A DNA stretch of 64,000 bases, taken from contig NC_045148.1 of the NCBI RefSeq assembly GCF_008831285.2, forward strand, positions 5,146,001 through 5,210,000, in the 5' to 3' direction. Position numbers and translations under genes: made by a program. Shown piece after piece: positions 21,178-61,751 of the stretch. This stretch comes from Nymphaea colorata (lineage: Eukaryota > Streptophyta > Magnoliopsida > Nymphaeales > Nymphaeaceae). Under the pieces are notes generated by a model. The model was not told the origin of the DNA, did no database searches, and saw nothing but the letters and a program-made list of their open reading frames with translations. Positions within the stretch are counted from its first letter, which is position 1; every line of letters starts with the position of its first letter.

Positions 21178-21603
21178 TAGGACTCACAATTCTTTTGTTC
21201 CCTTCTTCAGTGGAACGTGGTAAGAGTTCGACCTGCATGCCAGAGCACACAAGTGCTCGGGAAAACTCTCACAAGGGTTTTGACGAGTTTCCCCTTACAA
21301 CACTCATCCCTACCCCACCATGACCATGATTTACAGATGCATTGTATAAAACTCAACCCTTCAAGTTTTAAAAATTGTAAATTAAAGAAGGAACTGTAAA
21401 ATGAAGAGACACTTGTGATGAGCATAGTTTTCAAACATGGAGGTGTTGGGGAGAAAAGAAAACGGATACTTCATCTTCTAAAAGACTTAAAATAAAAAAC
21501 TCAAACTCTTACCCATGATTTGGATTAAGCTCCATCAGCTATCTAAATTTCCCAAGCTAAAAGAAGACATGGACATTTCAAATTATTGATTGCTGCATAG
21601 TAC

Positions 21604-21887
21604 ATACACATACATATAAACTGGTTTAACACTTTATTCATTGGCAAAAGCCAAAATAGCATTACTCGTCCCCTAAGAGGAGGAGTTAGGAAGCAAAAGG
21701 AACTAGCCAGGAGAATGTCGCTTCTTCTGCAAAACAAAGAATGACATACACATACATATAAACTGGTTTAACAATTTATTCATTGGTAAAAGCCATAATA
21801 GCATTACTCATCCCCTATGAGGAGGAGTTAGGAAGCAAAAGGAACTAGGCAGGAGAATGTGGCTTCTTCTGCAGAACAAAGAACGCA
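21604..21887. repeat. 142-bp tandem duplication including the SABATH 3' coding end
   Basis: Two units with a 142-base period share CATACACATACATATAAACT, GAGGAGTTAGGAAGCAAAAG and TGCTTCTTCTGCAAAAC-type sequence. The unit next to exon 3 contains the true stop codon and the last codons of the gene. The outer unit is a decayed copy of the same 3' end. Copy 2 (around 46,550-46,660) has only one unit, so this arose in copy 1 after the duplication, or was lost from copy 2. Confidence 0.85.
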
Positions 21888-24156
21888 GATGGCGGAGGTG
21901 AAGGTATGGAAGGAATTAGAGCAGAGAAGTGTTGGTACACTTTGTTCGGGAACCTTTGGAAAAGCTCATCCAAGATGTCGCTGCCAAAATGGTCGCTCAA
22001 CATTTTCTCACAAACTGCCCTCGAGGCAATGCCCATGCTTTGTGCTAGCTGCTCGAGATCAGCTTCAGTCCCTTCATCCCCTCCCCCTTTCAATCCCCAC
22101 CCCTGATTCACATGTTCTGCCACATGGACGGTAAAGTACCCGTTCATCTCTACCACCTCTTTGAACTCCTCGATGCTCGGTGCAAACAATGGCATTTGGA
22201 ACGAATCCAGCTCCTCTTCCTTCACTTTACCCTTCAAATGAAATTTCAAAGCCACAAGTTCATCTCATAACCAGTCGTCAAAGCAAGGAGAACAAGAAAC
22301 ATACATTTTAATGCATTAATTAGCACTTTCATTCGCGACTGCTGTCTTTTTTCTAATTAAAAAATTATTAAAACAAGGGTATTTTCATATTTTTTATTAT
22401 TATTTTAATATTTTTACTGGAAGAGTGGTCTTGAGAATTTGAGTCAAAAGTTGGTGGCCTTTTTATTGAATTTCAAATGTTGGACGCCTATTTGTTATTG
22501 GATCTTTCGTTGAGAGCCTATTTATAATTTTTCCTAAAAAAATAGGTTGCTTCACCTCATTACCGTTTTCTGGTATGACACAACTGAACCAATCATTCAT
22601 CAAAATGGTGCACATTAATTGGTTGGCATTTGTGAATCCTTTTCTTTGAGATTACAAGATTTCTAATTCTTTTCTAAAAAGGAATTATACAAGAATCACA
22701 TAAAACTATGGTCCCAAAACTAGTTACTTGTTCTTATAACTATCGGGCGCATCTCAAACATCATTTTGACAATGTCACACTAACAACATGAGACGTTGAC
22801 CACACGTCGGTCCATTGAGCGAAATAACTTGGGTGATCTACTCTTGACTCATTTCACGATATACGATTATAATGCCTCGAGATTCAATTGTTAGTTCTCT
22901 AGTTTTGAATTTAATTCCTACTTGGTGCCAAATACTTGAGCTTCATAATGAAATGAAACAGCTAGACACAGCCCCACATGGTTTTTTTGGGCATTAAAAA
23001 GAAAATGAAAAAGAAACTTCTCTTAAAACCCCAAGAGGTTATATCTCATTGGGTGGCAAAGTAGTCCACTTTTTTAAGGGGCTTCTATTCAAATCTAGAA
23101 GTAGTCATTGTCTCATCCCACTTCCCAATGTAGTCTTCCTCTCAACCGTAATAGGTCTCGAAGCATGCTGTGGAACATTGAGGGTGGAGTGCACAAGAGG
23201 GCAGTGAAATGAACCACTCACCCTAAATAAAGGGAAAATAAAAAGAAAAAGCTTTCTTGATGTTAGCTAAAACATAGGATTAACTTCGACCATGGCCTTA
23301 GGACTTACCTCCATAACAAATTCTCGAAGAACGGGCTCAACAAAGCTGATCACAATATCATAGCGAGCGGCATCGGGTGCCATGCATTTAGGGCGACACA
23401 AGAATTGAAGAATCAGCAGTCCTCCTGTCACTAGTTCCTCTGCCCTTCCACTTAGAAATGCCATCATGTCCAACCTGAACTGTGCAATATAAGCATTTAG
23501 AATGTCTGGCCCACCACCATAATAGAGTATCCTCCCCTTGTTGGCTACACCATCGGGAGACTTGGAGAGCCAATGCAGCGAGACTGAAGAATTAAAGCAG
23601 TGAATTGATGCTCGGGGAAACAGCCGTGAATAAAATGATCCAGGCACTGCTGCCACACAGTATGTTCGGTCGAAAGGGATGGAATTGATGAGCAAGTTAA
23701 AATCATTCCCGAATTGGTCATTGAAGAACCCCTGGAATTCCACTCCATCCACTTGATCACAGCTTGTTAATTTTTTGAGTTTCAGCAAGATTGCATCAAC
23801 AATAGTTTGCATGGTATAGAATGTGTTAGGTCCAACTGAGCAGCCGAGGTCTGCGATTCGAATTGTGCCCCCTCGAATTGGGACATCAAATTTGTCAACA
23901 ATTGCTTCACGTACCATATCTTTGACAGCCAAAAAGCTGCTTTTCTGCAAGTTGTATGTGAAATTTCAAGCAATATTAATTCTAACACATTTTGAACACA
24001 ATAAATAGTTAATCAGTCCACAAAGAGTTATTAGCTGAATGCAACTTAGAAAAATGAAACTGAATGTCACACATGTGAATGTAGATTAATGAAATTTTTT
24101 GCCTCATATTTGGTCATCAATATTCCCTCAAACATATGGAAAAGATGGCCTTCCAT
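21845..24156 (-). CDS. SABATH-family carboxyl methyltransferase, apparently intact copy
   Basis: SABATH enzymes use S-adenosylmethionine to methylate carboxyl groups of small acids (salicylate, jasmonate, IAA, gibberellins and others). Exon 2 (23944-23309, 212 codons) and exon 3 (22231-21845, 128 codons plus stop) join in phase at GAG|GTAAGT...AAG|GGT. A candidate exon 1 (24156-24073) gives a model of 368 residues, near the family norm. Visible are the SAM-binding ADLGCSVGPNTF (about 59-70), the NDQFGNDFN acidic motif (about 103-111), GSFYSRLFP (130-138), SLHWLS (150-155) and, in exon 3, EEELDSFQMPLFAPS. His precedes the conserved Trp where salicylate methyltransferases usually have Met, so salicylate is less likely as substrate. 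The substrate cannot be called. Exon 1 is the weak part: the usual GG.GE.SYA.NS is poorly matched by FEGILMTKYEAKN and the donor (CAT|GTGTGA) is weak, so the true first exon may differ or be damaged. A CACTA relic and an (AT)n tract lie directly upstream. Confidence 0.85.
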
Positions 24157-24185
24157 GGCATGGCTGCACAAACACACACACACAC

Positions 24186-24189
<4 letters not shown>

Positions 24190-24259
<70 letters not shown>
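24190..24259. repeat. (AT)n microsatellite upstream of SABATH copy 1
   Basis: About 35 AT dinucleotides follow a short (CA)n run. Copy 2 has only a short AT tract at the matching place (about 48,989-49,000). Low-complexity Tyr-Ile open frames on both strands here are artefacts of this repeat. Confidence 0.97.
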
Positions 24260-24270
<11 letters not shown>

Positions 24271-26596
24271 CATGTATATATGTTTATATTAGTAGATCTG
24301 CATCATTGAAAGTCCCTTGTTCTTTTTTGCTTTTGAGTCTTAGTGATGTTTTGCACTTTGATGTCAGTGAAGGTCCTTATTAGTGGCATCCTTAATAGAA
24401 TGTCACAAAAGCTTTTTTTTTTTTTACTGATGACCTTAGGAAATGCCAATTAAAGTCCAAAATCTTGAGTGATGTCTTCTCAATCAACATCAGTACAAGT
24501 CCTTTTCTGGTGCATCTCTAGTGACATTTTCTCAACAAATTTCAATAAAGGTTCCATGACAAGCAGTGGCTAATTGGGAAACCAGCTACGCAGTGCCTGT
24601 AATCTACTTTAGCCCAAGTTGATTGTCACAAAAAATGTGTCTTTCAGTTTGCTTGGACATTTTGCTACTGCACTCAGCTGAATATAGTGACCTTTTTCTT
24701 TAGTTGATCATACTCTAGGTCCGGTTAGTTGATTCATACCAACTTGAATGGTTTTATTGAAAATGAGATGCTGATAGAATTTGTGTGGTTCAATTGCCAA
24801 CAAAAATATGATTGTGTTGGATACTATATTGAACACATGCTCAAAAGACTGAAGAATATAAGTTGAAGTTAATATCCATTTCCAATATTGAAAACCAAGA
24901 TATTATAGTAAATGGGGCTTCTCAATTTTAAGCTGATGTTAGTTGAACCTGCAAAGCTAATAGTAGACACATGCATTCAGGTTTCTATATGTCAGTTTAT
25001 AAATGGAAAACTGCACTCTAAACTGCTCTTAGTGATTGGGAATCCCATTTTCTCTTCCTTGTGCTTCAATTATATGTTCTCTAAGTGGTAACCAGAAGTT
25101 TATATTTTCATCATTATGACCAACAAATGTCAGATAATATAGATTTTGTTTTGGATACCTATGCAAAGAAACTACATCTACATGAAGGTAATCATTCATC
25201 TACATAGTTCCATAAAAACTAGATTTTTTGCATGCTAACTCTTTCTTTTTTCTCTTTCACTTCTTTTTCTCTTTTCTATTAATTGGAAGTCTTGCTTGTT
25301 TCTTTGGCCAATCCCAAGCCTTTACTGACAAAGGCTCCTTTTCTCACTATGTAATTCTGGGTTTACATAAGTTGCAGTCATATTTTGCAAAATTTTTGCC
25401 AACATACTTATAAACTATATCATATAAACTCCATATAGGATTTGGATCCTATGGTGTGCATGATGCCTTTCTTCTTTTGCTAGTAGTTTTCGAAGAAGCA
25501 TACTGGGTCACATGGAGTCCAGTTATCTCTTGATCAAGGCTTGCGGCTTCCTAAAGATACTAGCAGAAAAAGATCTCTCTTTGGAACTAATTTCCAAAAG
25601 ATTTTGTTTCGGAAGAGGAAGGCAGGGAATCATGTTCTATAGCTAAGTTAAGGCAGGACTAAGGCACCCATAAAAGAGTATTTGATTAAAGGTGATTTGA
25701 GATTTATAGATCTTCTATTGTTTAAAAAGAATCTTAGATATTCTTATGAAAAGATGTTTTGATAGGACATTAACTTGAAATTATTGCATCTTAAACCATA
25801 GATCTCAAGCCAAACTTTTCCCCTTGTGTCTAGAAACTCACTCAAGATTGCAATTTCCTAAAACCATATTTTAATATAGGTCTCACATTAGACTATCTCT
25901 TCGAGTTTAAAACTTGGAGCTCTAAGACAGATTCCTAACCATTAAAGTATTCAATTCACATCTTTAGTCTGCATTAGGTGAAATCTATAGTTGAAGCAAG
26001 TTGTGAATTTCACAACTGTAGATTTTGGACCCATGTTACATCGCATTGTTTGACATAATTTAAACCAAATACTAATGACTCCATTGTCACAATTATTTGA
26101 AAATATCAATAGTAGCATGAAAATTTGAGTTTAGGAGTTATCCATGCATAAGTGTGTGCATGCACACACATACACATATGCATCACACAATATTTTGGTT
26201 TTTCTCATCAAAGGTTTTGTTTGTTTTGTTCTACAGCCACGTGAAAAGGGAAAAAAAAAATCCTTCTATTTCACATCATACATAACCTAGTAATTTGTTT
26301 TCCTTTTTCTACAAGTATCTTCTTTTATTTTGTCACTTATGTACTTGTTTGTTAAACATATCTTGCTTCCAACTTCCTGTCCATTTCATTTTTTCTTAAA
26401 CATTTATTTTCTCTCTTCAGCTTGTTAGTGTTTAGTTTTAGGGCCTACCCATGGGCCATCGACTTTATTTATATTTTATATAAAGTTTATAATAATACAT
26501 ATGTAAGAATGAATTAACCATAACATTATGTCAAAGCAGATCATCAAATTTCCCAAGATGTCATAGTTCACATGCTTTTTAATTATGAATCATTAA

Positions 26597-26598
<2 letters not shown>

Positions 26599-26648
<50 letters not shown>
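26599..26648. repeat. (AT)n microsatellite in the CACTA relic, copy 1
   Basis: About 25 AT units. The matching tract in copy 2 (51,358-51,380) is about half as long. Confidence 0.95.
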
Positions 26649-26654
<6 letters not shown>

Positions 26655-26753
26655 ACCAGTTCATAGAATTGGCTTCATAGGTAATTAATAGGTTTTTAGA
26701 TTTTCTTATTTAGATTGAAGAGATCTTTCACAATATCTAATGTTGCATGACAA

Positions 26754-26954
26754 ATGTCATGTCATGATGACATCCGAGTTAAAGATGGAGTGTTGAGACT
26801 CCAAGTAGATAGTCTTGCATGGATGAACTTTGGTGAAATGCATCTGCCAGTTGTAGTAGACTCTCGAAATATACAACTGCATGAACTGGTTTTATTGAAG
26901 TATTTTACATCTAATAATTATATCTTCAATGTGACAGGTTCATCAAACACATGA
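26754..26954 (+). pseudogene. CACTA TNP2 (Transposase_21) fragment, copy 1
   Basis: The open stretch reads KDGVLRLQVDSLAWMNF and then VDSRNIQLHEL. This matches the start of the plant CACTA transposase domain (DG.LRHPADS.AW..FD......DPRN.RLGL). Only this short piece survives. The catalytic core that should follow is missing before the DUF4216 fragment about 50 bases downstream, so there is a large internal deletion. Confidence 0.7.
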
Positions 26955-27003
26955 CAATTAAAGTCTATATATATCATAAGACATAGTATGGATATTTCAA
27001 TTC

Positions 27004-27378
27004 TTGAGAAAACTTCTGTTTAGATGTAAAGGTTTTATAACTAATGAATTTGGATTTCATATAAAAGATAATGATAAAAATATGAAATACCAAAACAGTG
27101 GCACACCTTTTAATGCACAATCTTTCAATTTTTCAAGCATAAGAGATAGGAATCATGTGATTGATGAAGTTACATATTATGGATTTCCCATGGACATTAT
27201 AAAGGTCAATTACAATAAGAGACTAAAATATGTGTTATTCAAATATGAATGGTATGCTGTTCTTAGTTTACATGACCCTGGCATTAAACAAGATGGAACT
27301 GATACATGCATCAAGATCAACTTGAGATGTATGAAAGATGAATTGCTCATCCTATCATCTCAAGCAGTTTTTATTTGA
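27004..27378 (+). pseudogene. CACTA DUF4216 fragment, copy 1
   Basis: A 124-residue open frame carries GFITNEFGFHIKDND, NMKYQNSG, YYGFPMDIIKVNYN, VLFKYEWYAV and DELLILSSQAVFI. This is the order of conserved blocks in DUF4216, a domain of plant CACTA transposase genes. The frame may start upstream of the Met. Copy 2 has a stop in the middle of the same domain. Confidence 0.8.
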
Positions 27379-27786
27379 CAATGATTAACATGTCGTTGTG
27401 AAAACAAGGCCTATATTTTGTATGACCTTTTGAAAAGAGATGGTATTATGGATAATAGTAGTTGTGATATTGATCTACAAAATTCTCCAAATGTTTAGGT
27501 TAATGATGTTGATGATGATGTGACTTGGATCAGGGAGGATGTAGAGGAGATTCTACATAATCATTCCCTCTAATTTAGGTTAAGAAAATTCATTTGTTGT
27601 TGTATTCTTATATGTTACCATAAACAGAATAGGTTATTTGTGCAACATTGTGTATTTTGTGTTTATTACTTTGCTAGATGACTTCTTAACGACTGTTTGT
27701 ACCATGTAAGTTGATACTTGGGATGAAGGTTGTTTAGGTAATAAATTTATTTATTTATATGAAATTTTTATTGCAAAATAATTGAG

Positions 27787-28008
27787 TTGGTTGATGCTTT
27801 CTTTCATTTTTTTACAATACCCCCAATAGGAAACATGTGTGAACTGACTCAAGCTCTTGCAACTACAAGTTTGATGAATGATAAAAAGCACAAGCTTCAT
27901 ATAATCTTAATTGGTCAATCAATTGGTAGAAATGCAAAATTTCTTACAACATTCATCGGAACACTAGGTCAAGATCCTGAATGTAAAACATGGACATTTC
28001 ATATGTAG
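27787..28008 (+). pseudogene. CACTA TNPA-type (Ptta/En/Spm) fragment, copy 1
   Basis: The frame reads KKHKLHIILIGQSIGRNAKF followed by LTTFIGTLGQ. This matches the LGQPIG.N...F.SFIGTL.R block of the plant transposase (Ptta/En/Spm, Transposase_24-like) family. It stops shortly after. Related sequence continues to about 28,230 and is also the source of the tandem 313-bp units at 45,504-46,129. Confidence 0.65.
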
Positions 28009-28239
28009 TTTAAAGTTGCCGAGTAACTTTAAAGCACATTTTTGGGAATGGGTGTGACAATTTATGCTTTATATTTAACTTTGAACTATTGTTATGCAAC
28101 ATTGTTCATATCGATGTTGTCATTTTTTATATATTCATAGTAGGAGAAGTTTGACATTCTTAGCAAACATAAGGTGGTCATGCACAACTGTGTATTGCAA
28201 GAATACTCATAATACTTCAGATAATGAATATATGAATTG

Positions 28240-30280
28240 AGAAAAATATAAAAGAAGTATGATAGGTATGTATTTCTTATGCAATGTCACTTAAATTCGT
28301 TCACAATGTAACTCTTAAAATGAACACTCTATCATATATTATGTTCAGAGTTAAAAAAATTATGTAAAAAAAATACTCAGGTGCATGAAAATCAAAAGTA
28401 CCAACACATTGCAAGTATGCAAAGTTTTCCACGATTTAAGACAAAAAAAGTTGAGTTAATATTGGTAGAATTTAATCCATATAATTTTTCATTCAACAAT
28501 ATTTCATTGTGAAGTAGTGAGCTAAAAATATCTATTTTAGTGTGTAGTATGGAAAAGAAGACCCAAACTTTCACATTTGAGTTTTTTATTGCAACTCGAA
28601 GCAGCACTAACACAAACTATTTTTACCCAGAAACTATTAGTGTTATCACAAGTATTATAGACTTTTATTTGTCACTTTTGACTATATATATGTGTAGATG
28701 TACATGTATAAATATATACTAACTTTGTCTACATGAAATGTGTTAGGAAAATCTAGGGGAAAGTAGCTAGTTTGCCCAAAGGAGCATCAGATTTACTTCA
28801 AGGGTTATATGCTATCCCAAGTGATGGTAGAAGATAGACAGAAGAAGTTAGACATGGATGGATACTCTCAATGGGGCTACTAGGTGTCAAGCATTCGCAG
28901 TTCTCTAGTGTATGTACAAAGAATAGTCAACTTGAACTAGAAAATTCAACATTAAAAGAACAAATCAATCCTTTAGAAAGATAGCTAGTGTGCTTAAGGA
29001 AACATGTGCAAGATATAACATGCTCAAAGGAACATGTGATATAGTCTTTGAGCCCAAATCTAAATGTGCAAGGGTGGATATGCTTGAAGACCATATAATC
29101 AGATTGTAGCATCACTACCATGATTCTTTAATTAAGTTGTATAGATACTATATGTTCTATGTAGGCTTGCCAACACTTCCTGATTTCTACCAATGACATC
29201 TATGGTCCAACCTTGAAGACCCAATTCATGGACTTGTTTTTTGATGTTGATATTCATGTAGAAATACCGTCTTATTATAGAAGATGGTTCTTGTACTACA
29301 TTAGTTTAGAATCATATACAATTTATGGAAGATGGTTATCATCTTATTATCATAAATAGTTGTTGAACTTTTGCTTTCATTCTTTTTCTTCCTTATGTCC
29401 TCATACCCTTGCTCTTTGTATATGTTAAACCTGAATAAAGGTATCAGGCTTTCAGAAGTTGAAGAAAACTTTAATTTTGTTTCATATTATAAGCCTAATG
29501 TGATTGTTGTTATAAACCATTTGAATATGCTCCTTATATGCTTCTAAGATACTTTCCAATCTAATGTAATCATGTTTGAGCCTATGAGAATACTCTAGTT
29601 ACTAGATAGGTTCTTTGGTCTTCAGTTAATCAATGGCTGTAATCACGTTAAACCTGAGAAGAATCCACTACTCTTGAGAAGGTAAATTGCTATTATACTC
29701 TTGCAATGTTTAATTACTAAATGTAGGATAATGTTGTGTTCTCATGTTGATGAAAGAAACTTGATACATAGGTTCTTCACTCCATCATGCTTATGCTTTG
29801 AAGCATGCTATTTGATGATGCACCTTTTCTCCTATGACCTAGATGTGGCTATTATTTTCATATTTTCTAATGAATTGCTTTTTTTGTAAATATTTTGTTC
29901 TTCTCTTATGAATGGTGTTGAGTAATTAAGGTTATGGAATACGATCTAGTGAAGTAAAGTTTATCTTAAAGGGTACTCAAAGACTTATGAGAGGCAAATG
30001 AAGATAGTCTTAAGGAGTACGTACAAGGTTTATGGTGAAGCTGTAGAGGCCGTGATCATGAAAATCGCACGACAGAGCATGCTTTGTGGGTCTAGTTTCA
30101 TAGCATTTGTAGTCCAAGCATTTATAGACAAAATTGTTTTGGAAAACTTGATAGGTAGCTGGTTGGTATGTTATTATTTGGAATGTAATCTATTTTGTAT
30201 ATTTCCATTTTTAGGATTTTTCAGTATTATTGATTAGTGAAAAATACATTAACTTTACCCATAGGAAAATAATGTTGATA
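28240..30280. other. CACTA-relic interior without clear coding
   Basis: Colinear with about 52,960-55,040 in copy 2. Short open stretches (28,540-28,722; 29,701-29,889; 29,998-30,237) have no recognisable domain and are interrupted in copy 2. Probably decayed transposon DNA. Confidence 0.5.
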
Positions 30281-32222
30281 AAACAGCCTTTGCTTATGCT
30301 CAAAATCTAATATCGGTCAAGGTGTTCAATCAAAACTAACAGACATAGCATCATTAAAAAGAAGTTACAGACCACAATTTTTACTGATGTCAATCTTTAG
30401 TACAAGATTAATAAACACTGACATGGCTTTGCATCAGTAAATTAAGGTTAGCATACACAAACATGAAGAGCCATTGGTGAAACTTTGACATTAGCGCAAA
30501 CTCAATGTAAAAGCTTCAAAAACGCTTTACTAACGTTCCATCCAAAATGTTGGTAAAGATTTTACTGACGTTTTAAAAGTTTATGCTGATGTTTTTCTCG
30601 TGTCAGTAAAGATAGTATATTTTTGATGTGTCTATATATTTAAACATGTTAAAAATAATTTAAACAAATCATCTGGCATGCTTATGACTGCAACTCTGTT
30701 TCAAGTTATTTTCATGAAAATATTATTTTTAATTATCAAATTATAGTTTTTTGAGGAGACATTAATTTTTTATGATTAAAATAACACCTTAATAAATATA
30801 TAGATAATTAACTAAGGAGATGCTTCTAGTCAAATCATTCTTCATTTACATATAAATTGAATTGGATGGTACATAGAAAAGAACATCGGCAATCTATTTC
30901 AATTAGGTGGTCTAGTTTTTGTTTCTAGTTAATCTAGTTGTCTCAACTACTAATGGTTCTCTCTTATTTCTGTCATAGGAGCGATCAGAGATATGCAATA
31001 GAAAAAAATTGGATCATTGGATTAGTGAGCTTTTGTTCATGCTGCTAGGATAGTGCCCGCCGAAAATCCAAGGTTTTGATGCAGTCATTTCGAAAATCAT
31101 CATTTGTTACTTGTATGCAGCATTACCCTGTGCAAGCCAGGGTTATAACAAATATAGATGGTGTTACATATTCTGAAATTTTGATCTAGAATTAAAATTC
31201 CACCTCAAACTAGAATTGGTATGAAAATTCCAATTCCATTTTTTTCGTGTTTGACAATATGAAATTTTGATTCCAGGACTAAAAATGACTTGTTTGAGGA
31301 AAAGAGACTTGAAATTCTAGTTATGAATTAAAACCATTATGTCTTGTGTCTCAAAAGCGCTAAAAAAATTCCAGGATCTAGAATCATAATTCCATGTCTA
31401 AGGAGCGATCATACTTCTATAATTTTGATTTTGGAACAAGCCTATGCTTCCGACATCAAATTAAATTATTTGTTTAATGATGCAATTCTCATTTTTAAAG
31501 AATGAGAACAATAATTCTAAAATTCCATTGATTCCAAGCAAATCAGATGGCTCCTTGATGAAAATTTTCATGCCTTGAGAAGGAAAATACCAAGGGAGAA
31601 ATTAATTCACTGTAGATGAGTGAACAGACCTCATATATGCCTATTTGCTAAATCCATGGTGCTTTTTGTGACACTTCTTCAAAGGGCGCTCAAATATGGT
31701 TCTTCCTTCATACCATCTCTTACAAACACATTTCCGTAAGGCTATTAATCACCCAGTTTTTGATAAGTATCAACGTTGGAGCTTGATCCTATTTTCCTAT
31801 ATAGGATCCGGTGCACGGATCATAAGCTTTTCCACAAGAATATTCAATAGCACTCGATTTTAAAGTAAGTTTTTTGCTTAAAGTAAAAAAACAAATCTCT
31901 TTATTATTATGTTATGAGGCTCAATATGTAAGTTCACTGAAATTGCATGAATCAACCGATTTCAGCCGATTTTGCAGGATTATGTTAGCATATTTTACCA
32001 AATATTATGAAGGAGGTTTTCGGCCTTTGTCCATTGCAGCTTCCAGTCAGAGCTGGTGTTTTTGGAAAGAATTGCAGATCAAAGGCAGATGAGATGATGT
32101 ACTAATTAGGTCCCTCTAATAAAGGTACAACTATAAACCCCCGTCAACTTGATTAGCTAGCTATTTTAAGCCAATTAACCAACCTAGTCAGGTGCATGAC
32201 AGAAAGCATTTGAATGGACCAA

Positions 32223-32405: not shown

Positions 32406-32499
32406 ATAATAGCCTTCCTTCGATCTTCAAGCTAGCGCTTAATGATTGGATGGTCTTCAATGAATTGTATGGATCTAAATTTATAGGACCCTTCCTCCT

Positions 32500-37740: not shown

Positions 37741-37757
37741 ATACAACTTTCTTAAGA

Positions 37758-45480: not shown

Positions 45481-45503
45481 ACCTCTCTTTTACTGGGACA
45501 TTT

Positions 45504-48941: not shown

Positions 48942-51498
48942 GGCATGACTGCACGCACACACACACACACACACACATACACACATACATATATATATAT
49001 ACATTTATGTATATTTATATTAGTAGATCTGCATCATTGAAAGTCCCTTGTTCTTTTTTGCTTTCGAGTCTTTAGTGATGTTTTGCACTTACGTGTTAGT
49101 GAAGGTCCTTACTTTAGTGACATCCTTAATAGAATGCCTCAAAAAAAAATTTTTTTAAGTGATGCCCTTAGGAAATGCCAATTAAAGTCCGAAATCTTGA
49201 GTGATGTCTTCTCAATTAAAATCAGTACAAGTCCACTTTCTGGTGCATCTCTAGTGACATTTCCTCAACGAATGTCAATAAAGGTCCCCATGACAAGCAG
49301 TGGCTAATCGGGAAACCAGCTACATAGTGCCCGCAATCTACTCTAGCCCATGTTGATTGTCACAAAAAAAAAGTGTGTTTCAGTTTGCTTGGACATTTTG
49401 CTATTGAGCTCAATATAGTAACCTTTTTCTTTTTGTTGATCATACTCTAAGTCCGGTCAGTAACTTGAATGGTTTTATTGAACATGAGATGCTGATAGAA
49501 TTTGTGTGTGTCATTGCCACACAACAATATGATTGTGTCTAATACTATATTGAACACATGCTCAAAAGACTAAAGAATATAAGTTGAAGTTAATATCCAT
49601 TTCCAATATTGAAAAACCAGATATTATGGAAAACGTGGCTTCTCAATTTCAAGCTGGTGCTAGTTGAACCTGCAAAGCTAATAGTAGACACATGCTTTCA
49701 GGTTTCTATATGTCAGTTTTTAAATGGAAGACTGCACTCTAAACCGCTTTTAGTGATTGGGAATCCCATTTTCTCTTCCTTGTGCTTCAATTATATGTTC
49801 TCTAAGTGGTAACCAGAAGTTTATTTTTCATCATTCTGACAAACATATGTTAGATAATATAGATTTTGTTATATGCCATATAATATAGATTTTGTTTTGG
49901 ATACATGTGCGAAGAAACTACAGCTACATGAAGGTAATCATTCATTCTACATAGCTTCCACAAAAACTTTATTTTTTGCATGCTAACTCTTTCTTTTTCT
50001 CTTTCACTTCTTTTTCTCTTTTCTACTAACTGGAAGTCTTGCTTGTTACTTTCAGCCAATCCCAAGCCTTTACTGACAGAGCCTTCTTTTCTCACTATGT
50101 AATTCTAGGTTTACATTAAATGCAGTCACTTTTTGCAAATTTTTGCCAACATACCTATAAACTATATCATATATAAACTCCATATAGGATTTCGATCCTA
50201 TGGTGTGCATGATGTCTTTCTTGTTTTGCTAGTAGTTTTCAAATAAGCATACTGGATCACATGGAGCCCAGTTAGCTCTTGATCAAGGTTTGTGGCTTCC
50301 TAAAGATACTAGCAGAAAAAGATCTCTCTTTTGGAACTAATTTCCAAAAGATTTTATTTGGGAAGAGGAAGACTGGGAATCATGTTCTGTAGCTAAGTTA
50401 AGGCAGGACTAAGGCACCCATAAGAGAGTCTTTAGTTAAAGATGATTTGAGAGTTATGGTTTTTAGATCTTCTATTGTTTAACAAAAATCTTAGATATGC
50501 TTATGAAAAGATGTTCTAATACGACATTAACTTGAAATTGTTGCATCTTTAAATCATAGATCCCAAGCCAAACTCCTCCCCTTGTGTCTAGAAACTCACT
50601 CAAGATTGCAGTTTCCTAAAACTATATCTTTAATATGGGTCACACATTAGACTATCTCTTCGAGTTTAAAACCTCAAGCTCTAAGACATATTCTTAACCA
50701 TTTTACTGACAGCCATGATTCAAGACACATCTTTAGTCTGCATTAGGTGAAGTCTACTGTTGAAGCAAGTTGTGAATTTCACAACTGCAGATTTTAGACC
50801 CATGTTACATCACATTGTTTGGCATAATTTAAACCAAATACAAATGACTCCATTGTCACAATTATTTGAAAATATCAATAGTAGCATGAAAACTTGGGTT
50901 TAGGAGTCATGCATGAGTGTGTGCATGCACACACATACACGCATGCATCACATAATATTTTGGTTTTTCTCATCAAAGGTTTTGTTTGTTTTGTTCTACA
51001 GCCATGTGAAAGGAAAAAAATATCATTCTATTTCACATCATACACAACCTAGTAATTTGTTCTTCTTTTTCTGCTAGTATCTTCTTTTATTTTCTCACTT
51101 ATGTATTTGTTTGTTAAACATATCTTGCTTCCAACTTCCTGTCCATTTCATTTTTTCTTAAACATTTATTCTTCCTCTTCAGCTTGTTAGTGTCTAGTTT
51201 TAGGTCCTAATGGGCCATCGACTTTATTTATATTTTATGTAAAATTTATAATAATATATATGTAAGAATGAATTAACCATAACATTATCTCAAATCAGAT
51301 CATCAAATTGCCAATATACCATAGTTCACATGTTTTTTAATTATGAATCATTAAGAAGATATATATATATATATATATATTATAATTTCAATTTTCAATA
51401 CCTGTTTTTAGAATTGACTTCATAGGTAATTAATAGGTTCTTAGATTTTCTTATTTAGATTGAAGAGATATTTCACAATATCTAATGTTGCATGACAA

Positions 51499-51699
51499 AT
51501 GTCATGGCATGATGACACCCGAGTTAAAGATGGAGTATTGAGACTCCTAGTAGATAGTCTTGCATGGATGAACTTTGATGAAATGCCTCCACCATTTGTA
51601 GTAGACTCTCGAAATATACGACTGCATGAACTGGCTTTATGGAAGTATTTTACATCTAATAGTTATATCTTCAATGTGACAGGTTCATCAAACACATGA
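51499..51699 (+). pseudogene. CACTA TNP2 fragment, copy 2
   Basis: Same piece as in copy 1: KDGVLRLLVDSLAWMNFDEM, then VVDSRNIRLHEL. Still open over 66 codons, but it is only a fragment of the transposase domain. Confidence 0.7.
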
Positions 51700-51709
51700 C
51701 AATCAAAGT

Positions 51710-52140
51710 ATGCATATATCAGAAGGCATTGTATGGTTATTTCAATTCTTGAGAAAAGTTTTGTTTAGATATAAAGGTTTTATAACTAATGAATTTAGAT
51801 TTCATATAAGAGATAATGATAAAAATATGAAATACCAAAATAGTGGTACACTTTTTAATGCACAAACTTTCAGTTTTTCAAGCATAAGAGATAGGAATCA
51901 TGTGATTGATGAAGTTGCATATTAGGCATTTCCCATGGACATTATCAACGTCAATTACAAAGACTAAAATGTGTTATTCAAATGTGAATGGTACGATGTA
52001 CTTTGTTTACATGACCCTGACATTAAACAAGATGAATTTGAATTACATGCATCAATATCAACTTCAGATGTATGAAAGATGAATTGCTCATCCTAGCATT
52101 TCAAGCAGTTTTTATTTAGAAGACCTCATTGACAATGATT
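51710..52140 (+). pseudogene. CACTA DUF4216 fragment, copy 2
   Basis: The first half reads GFITNEFRFHIRDND and NMKYQNSG and ends at a stop (TAG, 51923-51925) where copy 1 reads TATTATGGA. The second half continues past small deletions that change the frame. Clearly broken compared with copy 1. Confidence 0.75.
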
Positions 52141-52569
52141 AACATGTTGTGAAAACAAGGCCTATATTTTGTATGACCTTTTGAAAAGAGATGGTATTAA
52201 GGATAATAATAGTTGTGATATTGATCTCAAAAATTCTCCAAATGTTTAGGTTAATGATGTTGATGATAATGTGACTTGGGTCAGGGAGAATGTAGTGGAG
52301 ATTCTACATAATCATTCCTTCTAAATTAGATTAAGAAAATTCATTTGTTGTTGTATTCTCATTTGTTTCCATAAACAGAATAGGTTATTTGTGCAACATT
52401 GTATATTTTGTGTTTATTACTTTGCTAGATGACTTCCTAACTATTGTTTGTACCATGCAAGGCTGAAGTTTGTTTAGATAATAAATTTATTCATTTATAT
52501 GAAATCTTTATTACAAAAATAATTGAGTTGGTTTCAATAATGCTTTCTTTCAATTTTTTACAATACCCC

Positions 52570-52758
52570 CAACAGGAAACACATGTGAATTGACTCAAGC
52601 TCTTGTAACTACAAGTTTGATCAATGATAAAAAGCACAAGCTTCATATAATCTTACTTGGTCAACCAATTGGTAGAAAAGCAAAATTTTTTACAACATTC
52701 ATTGGAAATCTAGGTCAAGATCATGAATGTAAAACATTGACATTTCATAGATAGTCTG
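52570..52758 (+). pseudogene. CACTA TNPA-type fragment, copy 2
   Basis: The frame reads KKHKLHIILLGQPIGRKAKF then TTFIGNLGQ, closer to the family wording (LGQPIG) than copy 1. It ends at a TAG just before CTGAGTTGCC. Confidence 0.65.
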
Positions 52759-52959
52759 AGTTGCCAAGTAACTTTAAAGCAGACTTTTGGGAGTGGGTGT
52801 AATTATGCTTTATATTTAACTTTGACACTATTGTTATGCAACATTGTTCATATCGATGTTGTCATGTTTTATATGTTCATAATAGGAGAAGTTTGACTTT
52901 CTTAGCAAACATAAGGTGGTCATGCATGCACATTGCAAGAATACTCATACTTCTTCAGA

Positions 52960-55060
52960 TCATGGAGGTATGAATTGAGGAAATTATAAAAGAAGTATGA
53001 TAGGTATGTATTTCTTATGCAATGTTACTTAAATTTGTTCATAATGTAACTCTTAAAATGGACACAACATCATATATTATGTTAGAGTTAAAAAAAATTA
53101 TGTAAAAAAAAAAATACTCAGGTCTATGAAACACAGAAGTACCAACACATTGCAAGTATGCAAAGTTTTCCACAATTTAAGACAAAAAAGTTAAGTGAAT
53201 ATTGGTAGGATTTAATCCATATAATTTTTCATCCAATAATATTTCATTGTGAAGTAGTGGACTAAAAATATCTATTTTATTGTATAGTATGGAAAATAAC
53301 AACCAGAGCTTTCATGTTTGAGCTTTTTATTGCAACTCGAAGCAGCATTAACATAAATTATTTTAACCCAAAATCTATTAATTGTATCATAAGTATTATA
53401 GACTTTTAATTGACATTTTTTACTATATATATGTGTATATGTACATGTATAAAAATATACTAACTTTTCCAGCATGAAATGTGTTTGGAAAAAATAAAGG
53501 AAAGTAGCTAGTTTGCTCGAAGGAACATCTGACTTACTTCAATGGTTATATGCTATCGCAAGTGATGGCAGAAGATACACAGAAGATGATAGACATGGAT
53601 GGATACTCCCAAATGGGGCTACTAGGTGTCAAGCGTTCACAGTTCTCTAATGCAGGTGCAAAGAAGAGTAAACTTGAACTAGAAAATTCAACATTAAATG
53701 AACAAATCAATTCTTTAGAAGGATAGCTAGTGTGCTTAAGGAAACACGAGCAAGATATAACGTGTTCAAAGCAACATGTGATAGTCTTTGAGTTCAAATC
53801 TAAATGTGCAAGGGTGGATATGCTTGAAAATCATATAATCAGATTGTAGCATCATTGTTGTGATTGTTTAATTAAGTTGTATACATACTATATGTTCTAT
53901 GTAGGCTTGCCAACACTTCCTGATTTTTATCAATGATACCTGTGGTCCAACCTTGAAGACTGAGTTCATGGACTTGCTTTTTGGTATTGATATTCATGTA
54001 GAAACACCACCTTGTTATAGAATATGGTTCTTGTACTACATTGTTTAGAATTGTATAAAGTTTATGGAAGATGGTTGTTGAAGGATGTACTTATCATCTT
54101 ATTATCATAAATAGTTGTTGAACTTTTGCTTTCATTTTTTTCTTCTTCATGTCCTCTGACCCTTGCTCTTTGTGTATGTTAAATCTGAATAAAGGTATCA
54201 GACTTTCAAAAGTTGAAGATAACTTTAATTTTGTTTCATATTATAAACCTACTATGATTGTTGTAAACCATTTTGAATCTTTTCCTTATATGCTTCTAAG
54301 ATGAGTTCCAATCTAATGTAATAATGTTTGAGCCTATGAGAATACACTAGTTACTAGATAGGTTCTTTGGTCTTCAGTTAATCAATGGATAAAATCATGT
54401 TGAAGCTGAGATGAATCCACTACATTGAACCCATGGTTTCAAGAACTTAGAAGGTCAATTGTTATTATACCCTTACAATGCTTAATTACCAAAAGTAGGA
54501 TAATGTTGTGTTAAAGGAACTTGATATATAGGTTCTTCACTCTATCATGCTTATGCTTTGAAGCATGCTATTTGATGATCAATAAGAGATGCACCTTTTC
54601 TCCTATGACCTAGATCCAGCTACTGTTTTCATCTTTTCTAATTAATTGCTTTGCTTGTAAATACTTTGTTCTTCTCTTATGAATGGCAGTGAGTAATTAA
54701 GTTTATGGAATATGATCTAGTGAAGTAAAGTATATCTTAAAGAGTACTCCAAGACTTATGAGAGGCAAATGAAGATAGCCTTAAGGAGTACTTGAAGATT
54801 TATGGTGAAGCTATAGAGGCCGTGATCATGAAAAATCACATGATAGAGCATGCTTGTGGGTCTAGTTTCATAGGATTGTAGGCCAAGCATTATAGACAAA
54901 ATTGTTTTCGAAAGCTTGATAGGTAGCTGCAGGTATGTTATTATTTGTAGGAATGTAATCTATTTTGTATATTTCCATTTTTAGGACTTTTCAGTATTAT
55001 TGATTAATGAAAAATACGTTACCTTTACCCATAGGAAAAAAATAAAACAGCCTTTATTGA
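52960..55060. other. CACTA-relic interior, copy 2
   Basis: Colinear with 28,240-30,280 with many small indels. No supportable gene. The short open stretches differ from those of copy 1, which argues against coding. Confidence 0.5.
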
Positions 55061-55355
55061 TGCTCAAAATCTAACATCGGTAAAGGTGTTCAATCAACAC
55101 CATAGACATAGCATCAGTAAAAAGAAGTCAAAAACCTAGACATAGCATCAGCAAAAAAACGTAATAAACCAAATTTTTTATTGATGTCAATCTTTAGTAA
55201 AAGATTAACAAACATTGACATGGCTTTGCATCAGTAAATTACGGTTAGCATACACGAACGTGAAGAGCCATTGGTGAAACTTTGACATTAGCGCAAACTC
55301 AATGTAAAAGATTCAAAAACGCTTTACTGACTAGAAAATGAAATAAAATTTTGCT

Positions 55356-55690
55356 TGTAATTATATTGGACCTGAATAAGACTAAATCTGATCCATACAA
55401 TGCACATTTTGTTTACTTGTAAATGGCCTATTTCACTTGTGTAACATTAGGGTGTTCGCTTCTCATGAAAGACAAGTCACAGCCTCCCACATTGGGACGT
55501 CACTTTCTCCTTATTTTCTCCTTTTATAGTGACAAATTCTCGAGCTTTCTCACATGGTATCAGAGCCACGTTTAATAAAGTTGATAACATTTAATGCTGT
55601 GACCAATAACTGCCAACCAATATGAAATATTAGTAACTTGATTAAGATATTTTATTATAGACACTGTCACACTAACCACTTAGTGAGAAG
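55356..55690 (+). mobile_element. TRIM-like LTR remnant with tRNA-Met primer-binding site
   Basis: A 199-bp LTR-like unit (55356-55554) begins TGTAATTATATTGG, contains TCCCACATTGG and ends CTCACA. It is followed directly by TGGTATCAGAGCC (55555-55567), the complement of the initiator Met tRNA 3' end used as primer site by many plant LTR elements. About 120 bases of internal sequence follow, then the duplicated-block sequence resumes. No second LTR, polypurine tract or coding region is present. The short LTR fits a TRIM or a truncated Copia-type element. Confidence 0.75.
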
Positions 55691-55904
55691 TTGGAAATAT
55701 TGCCTTCGTCTGGAGGTAAGACTCATGCATGCCATCAAGTGTGACCTATATATTGACTGCAAATAACACCGCATCTGCATAACTGTTTTCGAAGAGAAAA
55801 ACACAAGAAACTAAAGCATGTGGTAAGTCCATTGCCACTTATAACAAGTTTTTTTCATAAATTATTTCCATTTTACAAATTTATATATTTGATTTACTTA
55901 TATT

Positions 55905-56289
55905 TTTTAGAACAATAACAAGGAGGAGTGCTTTTTGAGGAAATGTATTGGCAATACTGTAGCCGATCTATGGCAGGCAAAACCTTTCCTGTTATTCTTT
56001 TGACATTCAGCATGGGATTTATGTCTTTGATGATTCACCATGAACATTGTTTCTTTTTTCTAGCAAACCGAAAATGTTTCCTTCCAAGAATCATGAATTT
56101 TTCGCCTTAATTTTTCTTATAACTATTTTTTAACTTATTGCATGGTGTGAAGTTTGTTATTTTCAGAACATGAAGGTCTTCAAGTACTTCTTCACTACCG
56201 GACAGGAATATGAGGCTAATTTTGTCTGCTTCCTTGATGAGTTCAACACCAAGAATTGTGGTTCAAGGATCGCCTATTCTTATGTATTT
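55905..56289 (+). pseudogene. Prolyl 4-hydroxylase relic, copy 2
   Basis: The exon at 56167-56289 preserves a part that copy 1 has scrambled: directly after the acceptor it reads EHEGLQVL and then HY, as in P4H proteins (EHGEGLQVLHYE). It then shifts frame and continues as TGQEYEANFVCFLDEFNTKN. The iron-binding H-x-D pair present in copy 1 (HFD) has become NFV here. The upstream KEEC segment (about 55,915) is also present. Both copies are non-functional and damaged at different points. Confidence 0.72.
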
Positions 56290-56632
56290 GTAAGAGATTG
56301 GGCTGTGACATTCATCTACTTGAAATATTTTGATCAATTGAGATTTGGATAAATGGTGTGAAATATGACACTTGTTTCTTTCTCTCTATTGTGGTGCAAA
56401 TATTGAAGAAGTTGTGGTCTTTATATTATTTACAGTACTTGTATTATTTCTGGACTACATATAAAATATTGTTATTCTTTTAAAACAACATTATCATTGA
56501 TGCTAAAACTAGCGTCAATGATTCCAGCAATGGTGTTTAGCTCAAACAATACATGCACAGAGATGGGCCTCACAGATAATGGTAGAGAACTATTTGACCC
56601 TAGCACTAACCTTTGCAATAACAGCGGTCACT

Positions 56633-56710
56633 CGTTGGACTAAGACTCAGCGCTGGTGCTTATGTAATGCCCGTTGGACTAAGACTCAGCGCTGGTGCTT
56701 GTGTAATGCC
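56633..56710. repeat. 39-bp tandem duplication specific to copy 2
   Basis: CGTTGGACTAAGACTCAGCG continues through CTGGTGCTT-TGTAATGCC twice in a row (56633-56671 and 56672-56710). Copy 1 has one unit near 36,783. Confidence 0.92.
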
Positions 56711-59470
56711 AGTGAACACTTTGAGTCTGGCAGTTTTTTTAATGCTAGAGTTGTGTTCAGGACAAGTGCTAGCCATTTCTACCCTTGAAAGCATGTATGG
56801 CAGATACATATCTAGCACACTTTGTGGCGATAAAATAGCACCATTCTTCTAGTCCACTGGGACCCTTTATGTGAAGAGTTTAACATAATTGTACTGTGAT
56901 ATTTATTTTCTGCATATTATTTATTTATAAGGTTTAAAGGTTCCTAATAACTATGTAAGTAATATATCATGACATGTAAGTGTGTAAATGAAAGCAAAAA
57001 TTGTGACCCTAAAGAGTTAGGGTTGTCACAGATTACATCAATTTTTCCTTTAGCTGTGAGAAAAATGTTGCCACGTAAAGCTAGTTTTATTTTCATTGAA
57101 CTATACATGTATTTTAGAAAAATACATTCTAAGGTATTATAAAAAACAAAGTTAAACCAATTACAAGAACATATTGCACTCATACTATGTCACAAAAAAA
57201 ATGAGCTTCTCGTTATCTTATCTTGACATCATGGTACATTTAACGATTCATATTGTTGAGAAATGCAATTAGGGGGACTAGTGCACTATCGTTGGTACCC
57301 AATTGAGAGGTATATTGTATTACTGATTCATGTCATATATCAAATTTATAACAACGACTATTTTGATTTTACGTTCAACATACTATGCAACAGCTACTTA
57401 ATTACACTATGAAGTTATGTGTGTAACCAAAGCTAAGTGGAGGGTCAATCGCTGAGAATTATTGCGAATAATTTCTTCAATTTTATTCTACATACTTGAA
57501 TACATTGTAGACTAAATTCAATAGACCTATAAGAAATAATAACAAGATTAAAAGAGTCTGACCGAACATGTTGGGGTTCCCCTAATGGGTCGTGCACTTG
57601 GAGTAGTAGAAATTTAAATTTTGGATAATACAACTGTCTTAAGAGGCCGTTTTATAACAGTCCCATTGAACAGAACAGGTAGGACATCCTGTCCACCACA
57701 CCTTCATCATGTCCATTCTGTTATTAGTGTTTTATGTTCATTGTTTGATCATTTTAAGAACAAAACACAATGTTTGTTCTGTCTGATGTTTGTTTTATGT
57801 TTGTCTATTTTGTTCATCATCTCTATTTTGTCTGGCATTTGTTTTCTTTGTACACTGTGTGGTCCATTTTGTTTGTCCTGTCTGTTCTGTCCATTATTTG
57901 ATAACAAGAACACTCCATTTGGTAATGTAGTTTGTTTTAAAATATTGCTCCTAATATGAACTTGTTTTTAAATATATCATATAAAATAAATGCAAATAAT
58001 ACAACACATTTGGTAATAATATTGAATAAAACTACAAAACATCAAAATAGAAAATGACTTAAAACATTTAACTATTGAAGGTCATACACTGGCATACATC
58101 GATACAAAATGCGACATAAAAGTTCATAGACCTGAAAACGACATGACCAAAACTACCGCAAGCAAGCTAACAGCTATGAGAACTCTCTAACAATAAGTCA
58201 TTTTAGACATGTTGCTCAAATTGCATTTGACTATTATAAATTCATCTCGTCCTCCCCTTAAAAACCACAAGGTATGACCATCTAGTTCCTGCATTTTGAA
58301 ATTAATAGGATAATGACATAGTTAGATCAGTTGCATGAACTACGAATATAATGATGATATAAATTTTTAATAAAATCTTACTTGAAGCATCATCATTCCA
58401 CATATAAATAGAAATACAACACAGTTAAACCTACAAGCCAAAAACCTACATGCTACAACAATAGAACATAACAATTATTATCATTATACAACATACATGT
58501 GCTGTTTTATATTATTACTTTTGTTTAGAATGACACGATTTTGTGATTGATAATCACTTTAACAAAATTTTAATTAAAACTCTACGCTATTGAAAATTTT
58601 ACCAACTCAAAAAATAAAATATAAAAAAGATAAAGTTCTATGAGAGAATGACAAATGCAATGTCAAGCACAGTCACTAAGTTGTTGAGGGTTTACCCTCA
58701 ATTTCATTCTAAGTAAAAGGAGAAAGTAAAACATGATTTCTTCCAAAATACTAGAAGGGACTACAATATGGTGAACCAACCAGTTAAATGCACATTCAAG
58801 TGAGCAGAATGGGATCACCTTTAGTTCCAATCTAGTTTCTGCAGCCACTTATTAGAATTGCAGCAGTAACTAAACTTGGAAAATAAAAAAGAGCACCTTC
58901 ATCATCTTAAATCCCGGCCTAGCAAGGGTTTGGCATGGATTAGCTTCTCCATGGAATAGGTAATTGATTAGCAACAATCTTTTTCTCTGTTGACTTTATA
59001 ATTTAATTATTATGGCATCGATTGAACTAAAGTTTCGAAACAAAAAAGAGCACCTCCATTGCAATTCATTTGCACTAATCATTTTTCAGGAAGCACTCTT
59101 CTTTTATTTGAAGTAGGAAAAAAAAAAGTAAAAAATTTCTTGCTCTCCCAGCTTCGATCAGGATGCATTTGATATTGCCCAATGAAATTTCCATTTTTTT
59201 CTCTCTCTAGACCTTGGATACTTTGCATCGAAAGGATGATGTATGTTGGGGGTACATCTTCTTAACATGGAATATCACTGCAAATTAATGGGTCCAGTGT
59301 TGTAGAGTTGAAGACTAACTCAATTGAAGCAAACAACAACTAAGTTCTACCTCATAAGGACAAAAAAGTGCACTCACTTGGAAATAAGGAAAATCAAAGG
59401 AAAAAACGAAGCAACAAAAGCAACTCATGAGATTTAACCGTGAATTGAAAGAAAAGAAATGAAGAAAATC
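56711..59470. other. Non-genic interval of copy 2
   Basis: Colinear with about 36,830-39,915. It includes the TGTCC-rich MITE-like block (57,645-57,935) and a deletion of about 325 bp near 58,790 relative to copy 1. No gene is supported. The 112-codon plus-strand frame at 57,621 is low-complexity Cys/Leu-rich sequence. Confidence 0.5.
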
Positions 59471-59478
59471 TCCAAAGA

Positions 59479-60302
59479 TTAGCTGTCTGGAGATGGGAAT
59501 TTGACAGCCAACCCATCTTGTGGCCTTCCACCTTGGCCAAGGATTCCTACATCAAGTGTCAAGAAGTTGTCACAAATGTCTTTGATGGCATATTCATGAT
59601 TAGTTTGTTCTACTGAGGCTTCAATTGCTCTAATGGTATGTTCTCACGTTGATTATTTAGTCGGTTCTGCAAATTATTGAACTTCTTGTATACAACTTTA
59701 AGACTATGCCTCCAGTTTCTCCACAACCTAGCATATTTAGTCAATACTCATTTCTTGAACTTCCCATCATTGGCGTAATATTGCTGCATTGAATGCATAT
59801 AAAGTTAAATCAACAAAAATTAAGGTGTTAAGATAAAAAAATAAACATAAAACAACATAACAATGTAACAATACTTTAAAAACTCAATAAGAACTATGTA
59901 GAATTTAGCAAAACATGAGATCAAAATTTGAGATTGGGATATTCTAGTTCCCAGACTAACTAAAACAACAATGAAGAGGTTGATTGGACAACCATAAAAT
60001 TTTGGAAAGTTCACAAGTAACTATCTCCCTAACTATGAATGGAAATTTCACAGATTGAACCACTAGATTAAACAAACATTTTCATGAAAATATAAGAAAG
60101 ATTAGCAACAAAAGACAATTGTAGCATGTAAAATTCTGTATATCAATACATAACTAATATTACCTTAAAAGGATCCCATAAAGCTTCCTTGTAAGTAGGA
60201 GGAAGTTTTTCTCAACTCAAAGTAGTTTAGGGGTGTCTTGTGAGGAACTCGAGCTATTGTCCCGATAAATGTGGTGAGCTTTTGTGCCACATCATCTATA
60301 GG
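59479..60302 (-). pseudogene. Second CACTA TNPA-type relic, copy 2
   Basis: Counterpart of 39,922-40,740, with the same broken Ptta/En/Spm-like pieces on the minus strand and further point changes (for example the donor-side TCTTGTAAAG has become TCCTTTTAAG). The unrecognised open frame at its 3' side is preserved and open: EYAIKDICDNFLTLDVGILG in copy 2 against EYAIKDICESFLTLDVGILA in copy 1. Confidence 0.6.
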
Positions 60303-60417
60303 TTATGTTGACCATGCAAAATTTCACAATCTTACATGTCATGACCATTTATATGGAATGAACAAAAAATAATCAAAATATTTATTCGCCTCTATATTCT
60401 CACTGCGGGAACCCATG

Positions 60418-60492
60418 AGAGATAGGACTCGACTCGTTGGTACGAGTTCTGACTGTTACTGCCACCTTTAACAGGGCTAAACAGATCAAGGA
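60418..60492. repeat. Conserved GTCGGTACGAG-type block, copy-2 counterpart
   Basis: Same block as at 40,866, with the central CG changed to TG (GTTGGTACGAG). It lies inside segmental copy 2. Confidence 0.55.
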
Positions 60493-61751
60493 CTAGATTA
60501 AGTGTTTAAGGTCCCAAAGTGGGATCATCATCAAAACTAAATGCAAAGAAGGCCCTGACTTTTTAAATAAGAGTATTTAGAATTCTAAGTGGATCATCAA
60601 TATTGGAGAGCATAAGCTGAAAATTCTTGAATCAAATAACATAGTGCATGATCTATGTCATAATAGACCCAAGCAAGATTTAAATCCTAAGTCTAATATG
60701 AATGCATGCAAAACTAGATTCTTTATATAATCGAGATCAAGTTTCTAAGTTTGGGATGTGGACCTAGGAATATTTTGATTCAAAATTCATATCCAAATAT
60801 TTAGTAAGAATAGTCCAAACATTCAATATTTGATCCAAATATAGGGTTTAGGTTTAGGGTTATTCTAATAGAGTATGAAGTTCAAATCCTAAGCTGAGGG
60901 CAGATCCAATTCATAAATGAATCTTTAATTCAAAATTCATAATCTAAATTCAAAATGAGGTATAACGTTATAATTTCAGGGTTTAGATTCTAAAATCCAG
61001 AATAAGCATTTCAAATATTGATTCAAATTGTCATATAATCCAAAAGATTGATATGAAATTCAAATCAAGAATCCAATTCTTATTAGGTCTGAATTCAATA
61101 ATCTGATTCTTCTAATGCAAGTTGTATCCAAATCCGATCTCATATTTAAATATCAAATTTGATATTTAAATACAATTCTTCCAAGATCCCCACGTCTAGC
61201 CTTATTATGGTTTGGCTCAAACTTGGCTAGGGTTTGAGTCTAACTTGACTAAGGTTTCGTTTTAGTCTAACGAGAGTATAGATGTATAACATCGAAGGTT
61301 CAAAGTTGGGTACAAAATCGTGGACTCAATATTTGGTCTTGGTTAAAATATTGAGAGAATGGTTTAATACTATGGATTAGATACCAATTACGAATGCATC
61401 TAGGTTTTATAAAAATCATGTTTGAAATGGCTAGTTTGAAAATATGCATTTGAAAACTACAATTCTGAATTCTGTATTTTTCATATAATCAACTTAAGTA
61501 CACATATGGGATATCGCTGCAAATGTATAGTTGCTGACCTTAACTTGCTTAATATGAAACCTAAATGTATGTGTATTTATGAAATCAATGAATGCATTAC
61601 GAAAGAAGGCTATATGAATGCACATAACTAACCACATTATTGAAAATAAAACTAACAAAACAAATATATATGCATGAATGACTGTTTGCATCCCAAAATA
61701 TTGGTTGGTTTTGGAGTGCTCCAGAAAAATGAGGTTTTTGTTTTGAAAGAG

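Follow-up and report, generated by a model that had tools for sequence, protein, structure and literature searches.

Tandem clusters of SABATH methyltransferase genes (PF03492) are common in plants. The locus described here lies in a 64,000-nucleotide stretch of the water lily Nymphaea colorata (C11:5,146,001-5,210,000, hereafter the window; C11 is a sequence of 24.3 Mb), and it resembles such clusters in having one gene per unit, in the head-to-tail arrangement of its units and in the presence of both intact and broken copies. It appears to differ from them in that the unit is about 25 kb long, mostly noncoding, rich in transposons and equipped with a single gene, and in that the breakpoints and the later rearrangements can still be read. 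For N. colorata itself, PMC7015852 reports 13 SABATH homologues, one of which methylates decanoic acid. The PF03492 profile gives 46 matches in the 407.8 Mb of genome searched here, counted as exons and not reduced to genes, and this figure has no obvious fit with the 13 homologues of that paper.

Self-comparison resolves the locus into four head-to-tail units, A, B, C and D, the last of which appears as a relic (Table 1). A 601-base probe detected a third copy beyond the window, also on C11, and 204 kb, comprising the window with 40 kb to its left and 100 kb to its right, were compared with themselves, matches of at least 250 bp being listed; there is not a single N within these 204 kb. Because the spacer at 42.2-46.1 kb, between the two copies inside the window, has a homologue at 65.1-68.8 kb, it forms the end of unit A. 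Searching the genome with positions 35.9-38.9 kb of A returned at least 49 matches, of which the best four are the places in the array, D covering half of the query; the others, among the best candidates that were scored, are shorter dispersed fragments. In the 61 kb that precede the array and the 71 kb that follow it, the unit is represented only by short repeat pieces, and the left flank at 17.0-21.2 kb gives only short low-complexity or weak matches to the rest of the window.

Table 1. Features of the array and associated elements. Positions are those of the window; numbers above 64,000 lie beyond its right end.
Feature	Position	Strand	Description
Unit A	21177..46104	+	24,928 bp (24.9 kb); left limit at TTAGGACTCAC (11-mer), right limit at the A-B junction
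Unit B	46105 to ~68,757 (C11:5,214,757); in window 46105..64000	+	~22.65 kb
Unit C	~68,757 to 88,208		19.5 kb; its last position corresponds to A 40,518
Unit D	88,206-93,227		Putative 5-kb relic; pieces equivalent to A 31,387-37,755
Block 1 (A / B)	21177-21743 / 46105-46655	same strand	Self-BLAST
Block 2 (A / B)	21793-30534 / 46563-55331	same strand	Self-BLAST
Block 3 (A / B)	35813-38908 / 55692-58789	same strand	Self-BLAST
Block 4 (A / B)	39232-42174 / 58787-61686	same strand	Self-BLAST
313-bp direct repeat	45502..46124		Two copies at the A-B junction, one at the B-C junction
SABATH exon 1, A	32325..32399	-	25 residues, ATG start, GT donor after; tblastn with paralogue exon 1, also in motif scan
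SABATH exon 2, A	23309..23944	-	212 residues, open, AG acceptor, GTAAGT donor
SABATH exon 3, A	21845..22231	-	128 residues and TAG stop
SABATH exon 2 relic, B	48094..48729	-	Two in-frame stops
SABATH exon 3 relic, B	46615..47001	-	Open
5.28-kb block of A	30535..35812		About three-quarters present in C, lost from B; carries SABATH exon 1
326-bp stretch	38907..39232		Present in A and (whole) in C, lost from B
360-bp filler in B	55332..55691		Non-homologous, at the site of the 5.28-kb loss; TGGTATCAGAGC at 55555
Solo long terminal repeat (LTR) in B	61,687-65,110; in window 61687..64000		3,424 bp, TG...CA ends, target duplication ATGAC
142-bp tandem duplication	21602..21883		Private to A, overlaps the end of exon 3 and the 3' flank; single in B and C
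Tentative CACTA-like relic	26751..30630	+	In SABATH intron 1; shared among A, B and C as far as 30,534; ends placed by eye
Multicopy element	42300..45400		Right part of unit A (former spacer); at least 83 matches

Within the window, positions 21,177-42,174 of A and 46,105-61,686 of B are collinear on the same strand in four blocks of a self-BLAST search, in which matches of at least 150 bp were reported and the identity of the blocks, gaps counted, is 82.7-90.7%. When aligned bases only are considered, identity ranges from 89.95 to 94.9% across 14 alignment windows and is about 93% over shared columns; these per-window values are preferable to the overall figure of 92.7%, which takes in columns forced across a non-homologous block of 5.28 kb in A and 0.36 kb in B. 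The likeness is well above chance and above that of scattered repeats. The original prediction, which saw in the window two long stretches of the same orientation and order that had arisen by local duplication and then diverged, is borne out by the collinear blocks and by the graded divergence among the units. Transposon relics are indeed present in both stretches, and the kinds of difference it named (point changes, indels, which are many, the length of AT microsatellites and a presence or absence of about 5.3 kb) were all found in the alignment, together with a 326-bp indel. The two stretches, of about 21 and 15.6 kb, are not complete segments parted by a spacer of their own but belong to the first two units of the four-unit array. 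The right borders at 42,174 and 61,686 are false, as homology resumes between 42,164-45,812 and 65,111-68,757, past a 3.4-kb insertion that interrupts it in B, and the spacer lies inside the unit. Similarly, the description of the genes as fragments is correct for B, which has two stops and has lost exon 1, but not for A, whose three exons form a complete frame of 365 residues.

The differences between A and B can be given a direction by reference to C. Since C holds about three-quarters of the 5.28-kb block (as the sum of BLAST hits) and all of the 326-bp stretch, both differences are losses from B; this adds a polarity to the predicted presence or absence, and an insertion of 5.3 kb into A is ruled out by the same observation. 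No other copy of the filler that occupies the site of the larger loss was found in the 204 kb examined, and TGGTATCAGAGC within it is a string that we take to resemble the primer-binding site of LTR elements. The 3.4-kb insertion in B begins with TGTTTG, ends with TTACA and is flanked on both sides by a perfect 5-bp ATGAC, the empty site being intact in A. A genome search with its first 1.6 kb gave at least 41 matches, its own place among them, and 39 have 89-96% identity (40 of 2,208 candidates having been scored). Five same-strand pairs of matches, judged by their positions alone, lie 11.5-12.6 kb apart on C5, C6, C9, C10 and C13, a spacing expected of two LTRs that flank one element. On the strength of these ends, the target duplication and the paired matches, the insertion is read as a solo LTR belonging to an LTR retrotransposon with many copies in the genome. 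The edges (TG...CA, ATGAC) rule out a Mutator-like element, for which the target duplication would measure about 11 bp. Degenerate internal repeats are found inside the solo LTR at 63,336-64,278, extending past the end of the window.

The single gene of the unit encodes a SABATH methyltransferase; it is complete in A and C, broken in B and absent from D. In both A and C the spliced coding sequence has 1,098 nucleotides (365 residues), runs from ATG to TAG and has GT-AG introns, the first of which is 8.4 kb long and filled with transposons in A. PF03492 matches the exon 2 frame of A (23270-23965) with 190.7 bits and the exon 3 frame (21848-22264) with 77.7 bits, against a cut-off of 29.8. Exon-1 peptides of three paralogues from the same genome were placed by tblastn at 32,399-32,325 in A and 79,867-79,793 in C (E = 1.5e-6 and 1.7e-9, respectively, with the peptide from C11:16.85 Mb), and no comparable match to them was detected in B or D. 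This exon has, in A and C, an N-terminus of the GGxG...NS type, as in the paralogues of this genome. Among solved structures, those most similar to exons 2 and 3 of A, taken together, are the O-methyltransferases of geniposidic acid (PDB 8wwq, E = 6.3e-59) and loganic acid (PDB 6c8r, E = 7e-57); aligned with these, A is 7 residues shorter around its residue 135 and about 11 residues longer in its C-terminal part, and the relatedness gives no substrate.

The coding sequences of A and C are separated by 27 synonymous and 26 nonsynonymous differences, and the ratio of nonsynonymous to synonymous divergence (dN/dS) between them is 0.26 (Fisher p = 3.7e-6). The genes of A and C show purifying selection and, judging from their sequence, probably still code for a small-molecule carboxyl methyltransferase. 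The ratio in the remaining exons of B is 0.23 against A and 0.30 against C, which implies that constraint acted on B, too, over much of its history. In exons 2 and 3, the private changes comprise 11 synonymous and 5 nonsynonymous in A, 16 and 18 in B, plus its two stops, and 13 and 17 in C, where the stem of A and B is included. The counts are small and would be compatible with relaxed selection on B and constraint on A, yet C has about as many nonsynonymous changes as B.

Among 30 loci compared, the closest relative outside the array is at C11:16.85 Mb, with 66.5% protein identity in exon 2 and 65% in exon 3, and a paralogue at C11:16.84 Mb reaches 80% in exon 3; from these values, both are much older than the units of the array. 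Another, tighter SABATH tandem array is apparent at C12:13,888,105-13,910,747, where seven PF03492 exon matches are spaced almost evenly, at about 3.7 kb, and two more matches of the same kind lie at C11:20,952,799 and 20,956,555.

The relative ages of the units were studied over 12,411 columns in which A, B and C could be compared. Private differences number 437 in A, 423 in B and 712 in C, all three units differ at 48 columns, and the pairwise differences are 7.3% for A-B, 9.6% for A-C and 9.5% for B-C. Unit D is 83-85% identical to the other three (about 16% different), as measured over BLAST-aligned columns that favour conserved pieces; the tail of C contributes about 210 bases to the figures for A-D and B-D, and overlapping matches enter the one for C-D. 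This graded divergence indicates that D split first, then C, and then A and B.

The shares of private differences nonetheless vary among the 14 alignment windows (chi-square 105, 26 degrees of freedom, p = 1.9e-11). B and C are closest to each other at 28.7-29.7 kb (p = 1.4e-7), and C is farther off than usual at 35.8-36.8 kb (p = 0.0011) and 37.8-38.9 kb (p = 0.029), all three values being corrected for 14 comparisons. A scan of 26.8-30.5 kb picks out a tract at 28,469-30,028, in which B is closer to C than to A, with 82 sites private to A against 38 private to C, and two of 5,000 permutations were as extreme. It is likely, although not certain, that gene conversion between B and C affected a tract of about 1.5 kb here, around 28.5-30.0 kb; because the region for the scan was picked after the per-window test had flagged it, the signal is suggestive and not a proof.

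The A-B and B-C junctions align with each other. The 11-mer TTAGGACTCAC occurs at 21,177, where unit A has its left border, at 45,793, where the first copy of the 313-bp repeat ends, and at one further site on the + strand of the 204 kb, this being the strand scanned. Judged by eye, the sequence that follows it at the junction is at first like the unit's right end and farther on like its left border, and the two breakpoints are similar over about 25 bases, among them the 11 identical ones. TTAGGACTCAC is present at both presumed breakpoints. These are most simply explained as having been joined once through short homology, further units having arisen through unequal exchange. The 313-bp repeat is itself about 75% like positions 27,992-28,236 of the relic in intron 1. 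The contact between C and D is unlike the other junctions, the equivalent of A 40,518 adjoining that of A 31,387, and would represent a later deletion.

The best explanation for the locus, and a highly probable one, is tandem duplication on short homology, followed by unequal exchange and then by decay of the units. A block of about 25 kb with one three-exon SABATH gene was duplicated head to tail; short homology at the two breakpoints would have joined them, and the long homologous units would then have exchanged unequally and so given rise to later copies with the same junction. At least four units were formed, each of which subsequently decayed independently: a deletion would have fused D with the end of C, and B lost 5.28 kb including exon 1 and gained two stop codons and the solo LTR, A and C retaining the complete gene. 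Several observations weigh against parts of this account. The scattered pieces of D that align could stem from an independent, older duplication rather than from a unit of the array. The native right flank has been lost, such that the right breakpoint is read from the repeat copy at 45,793 in place of an undisturbed site. Within the exons of the SABATH gene, A and C are no more diverged than A and B (synonymous divergence, dS, of 0.12 and 0.14, respectively), so that the units do not show the same splitting order throughout the array, which may reflect exchange between units or chance.

An assembly artefact, in which a single locus present as two haplotypes or homoeologues had been set out in tandem, would equally produce stretches alike in order and orientation such as A and B, and the array is known here from the assembled sequence. 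Such an artefact is nevertheless very unlikely, because the divergence of 7.3% between A and B and of about 9.5% to C exceeds usual allelic differences, and because three to four units with graded divergence, not two, are present. The A-B and B-C junctions, moreover, share their structure inside continuous N-free sequence, B has a private insertion with its own target duplication, and the left flank and the surroundings of the array match the unit or the window only in short, weak or repeat pieces. Much of the unit is derived from transposons (the CACTA-like relic, the element at 42.3-45.4 kb and the dispersed fragments of 35.9-38.9 kb), as might be expected if independent insertions had mimicked a duplication in a repeat-rich region. 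This has next to no probability, however, given that the order of exons, introns and intergenic sequence is fully kept, with collinearity over more than 15 kb, and that none of the matches listed outside the array, for which the best candidates were scored, spans 35.9-38.9 kb.

The position of the nearest SABATH paralogues, which among the 30 loci compared are those at C11:16.84-16.85 Mb, about 11.7 Mb away, could be cited in favour of the whole array having been copied here from another site rather than formed by local exchange. Such dispersed duplication is very improbable indeed: with identities to the array of only 66.5% (exon 2) and 65-80% (exon 3), these paralogues are far older, and the units abut with the same junction. 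Tandem duplication with subsequent decay is therefore retained as the account of the locus. It is doubtful that the array is still active and variable in copy number, with unequal exchange and gene conversion, acting between units whose introns are filled with transposons, making, breaking and refreshing its copies; were this the case, individuals would differ in the dose of an enzyme for methyl-ester scent or hormone.

The relic in intron 1 is old and can be called CACTA-like only tentatively, on the basis of weak Pfam matches below the cut-offs (DUF4216, 29.0 bits against 30.6; Transposase_21, 14.1 against 28.6) and of a subterminal repeat structure that we assume to be of the CACTA type. 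CACTA (En/Spm) elements have CACTACAA as their termini. This string was not found in the window, in which the sole TTGTAGTG, at 37,001, lies outside the relic. The homologue in B of the element at 42.3-45.4 kb is 92% identical, and its dispersed relatives are 66-85% identical. Scans of the window for tRNAs and, at gathering thresholds, for Rfam families found nothing. Pfam was applied to 50 open reading frames (ORFs), nearly all from the 379 of at least 50 amino acids in the window, and 40 of the 50 gave only weak matches below the cut-offs. A second gene beside the SABATH gene, suggested by a string at A 35,773 that resembles an exon and is seemingly cut in B, was dropped because the similarity between A and D is alike in all the frames listed; the ORFs tried around it matched no Pfam family above the cut-off, the string itself not having been searched.

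Several features of the window lie to the left of the array. An exon of a glycine cleavage H-protein gene is found at 8,317-8,757 on the + strand (GCV_H, 73.3 bits), and a further H-protein exon with a plausible C-terminal end was identified by eye at 10.2-10.4 kb. Two tandem copies of about 174 bp, with 86% identity, occupy positions 12,228-12,576. The minus-strand ORFs at 13,912-14,178 and 17,950-18,340 may resemble a style cell-cycle inhibitor (SCI1-like) protein; Pfam detected nothing for the ORF at 13,912-14,178, and only matches below the cut-offs for two ORFs of 17,950-18,340.

Tandem gene duplication is a well-known kind of event, the general view of which is unchanged by this locus, and the case is unusually well resolved. 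Both the growth and the decay of a cluster can be followed in one sequence, from the breakpoints and the order of splitting to the copies that survived and the way in which B was broken. The genes of the array belong to a family that, according to PMC7015852, includes a floral-scent enzyme of the water lily.

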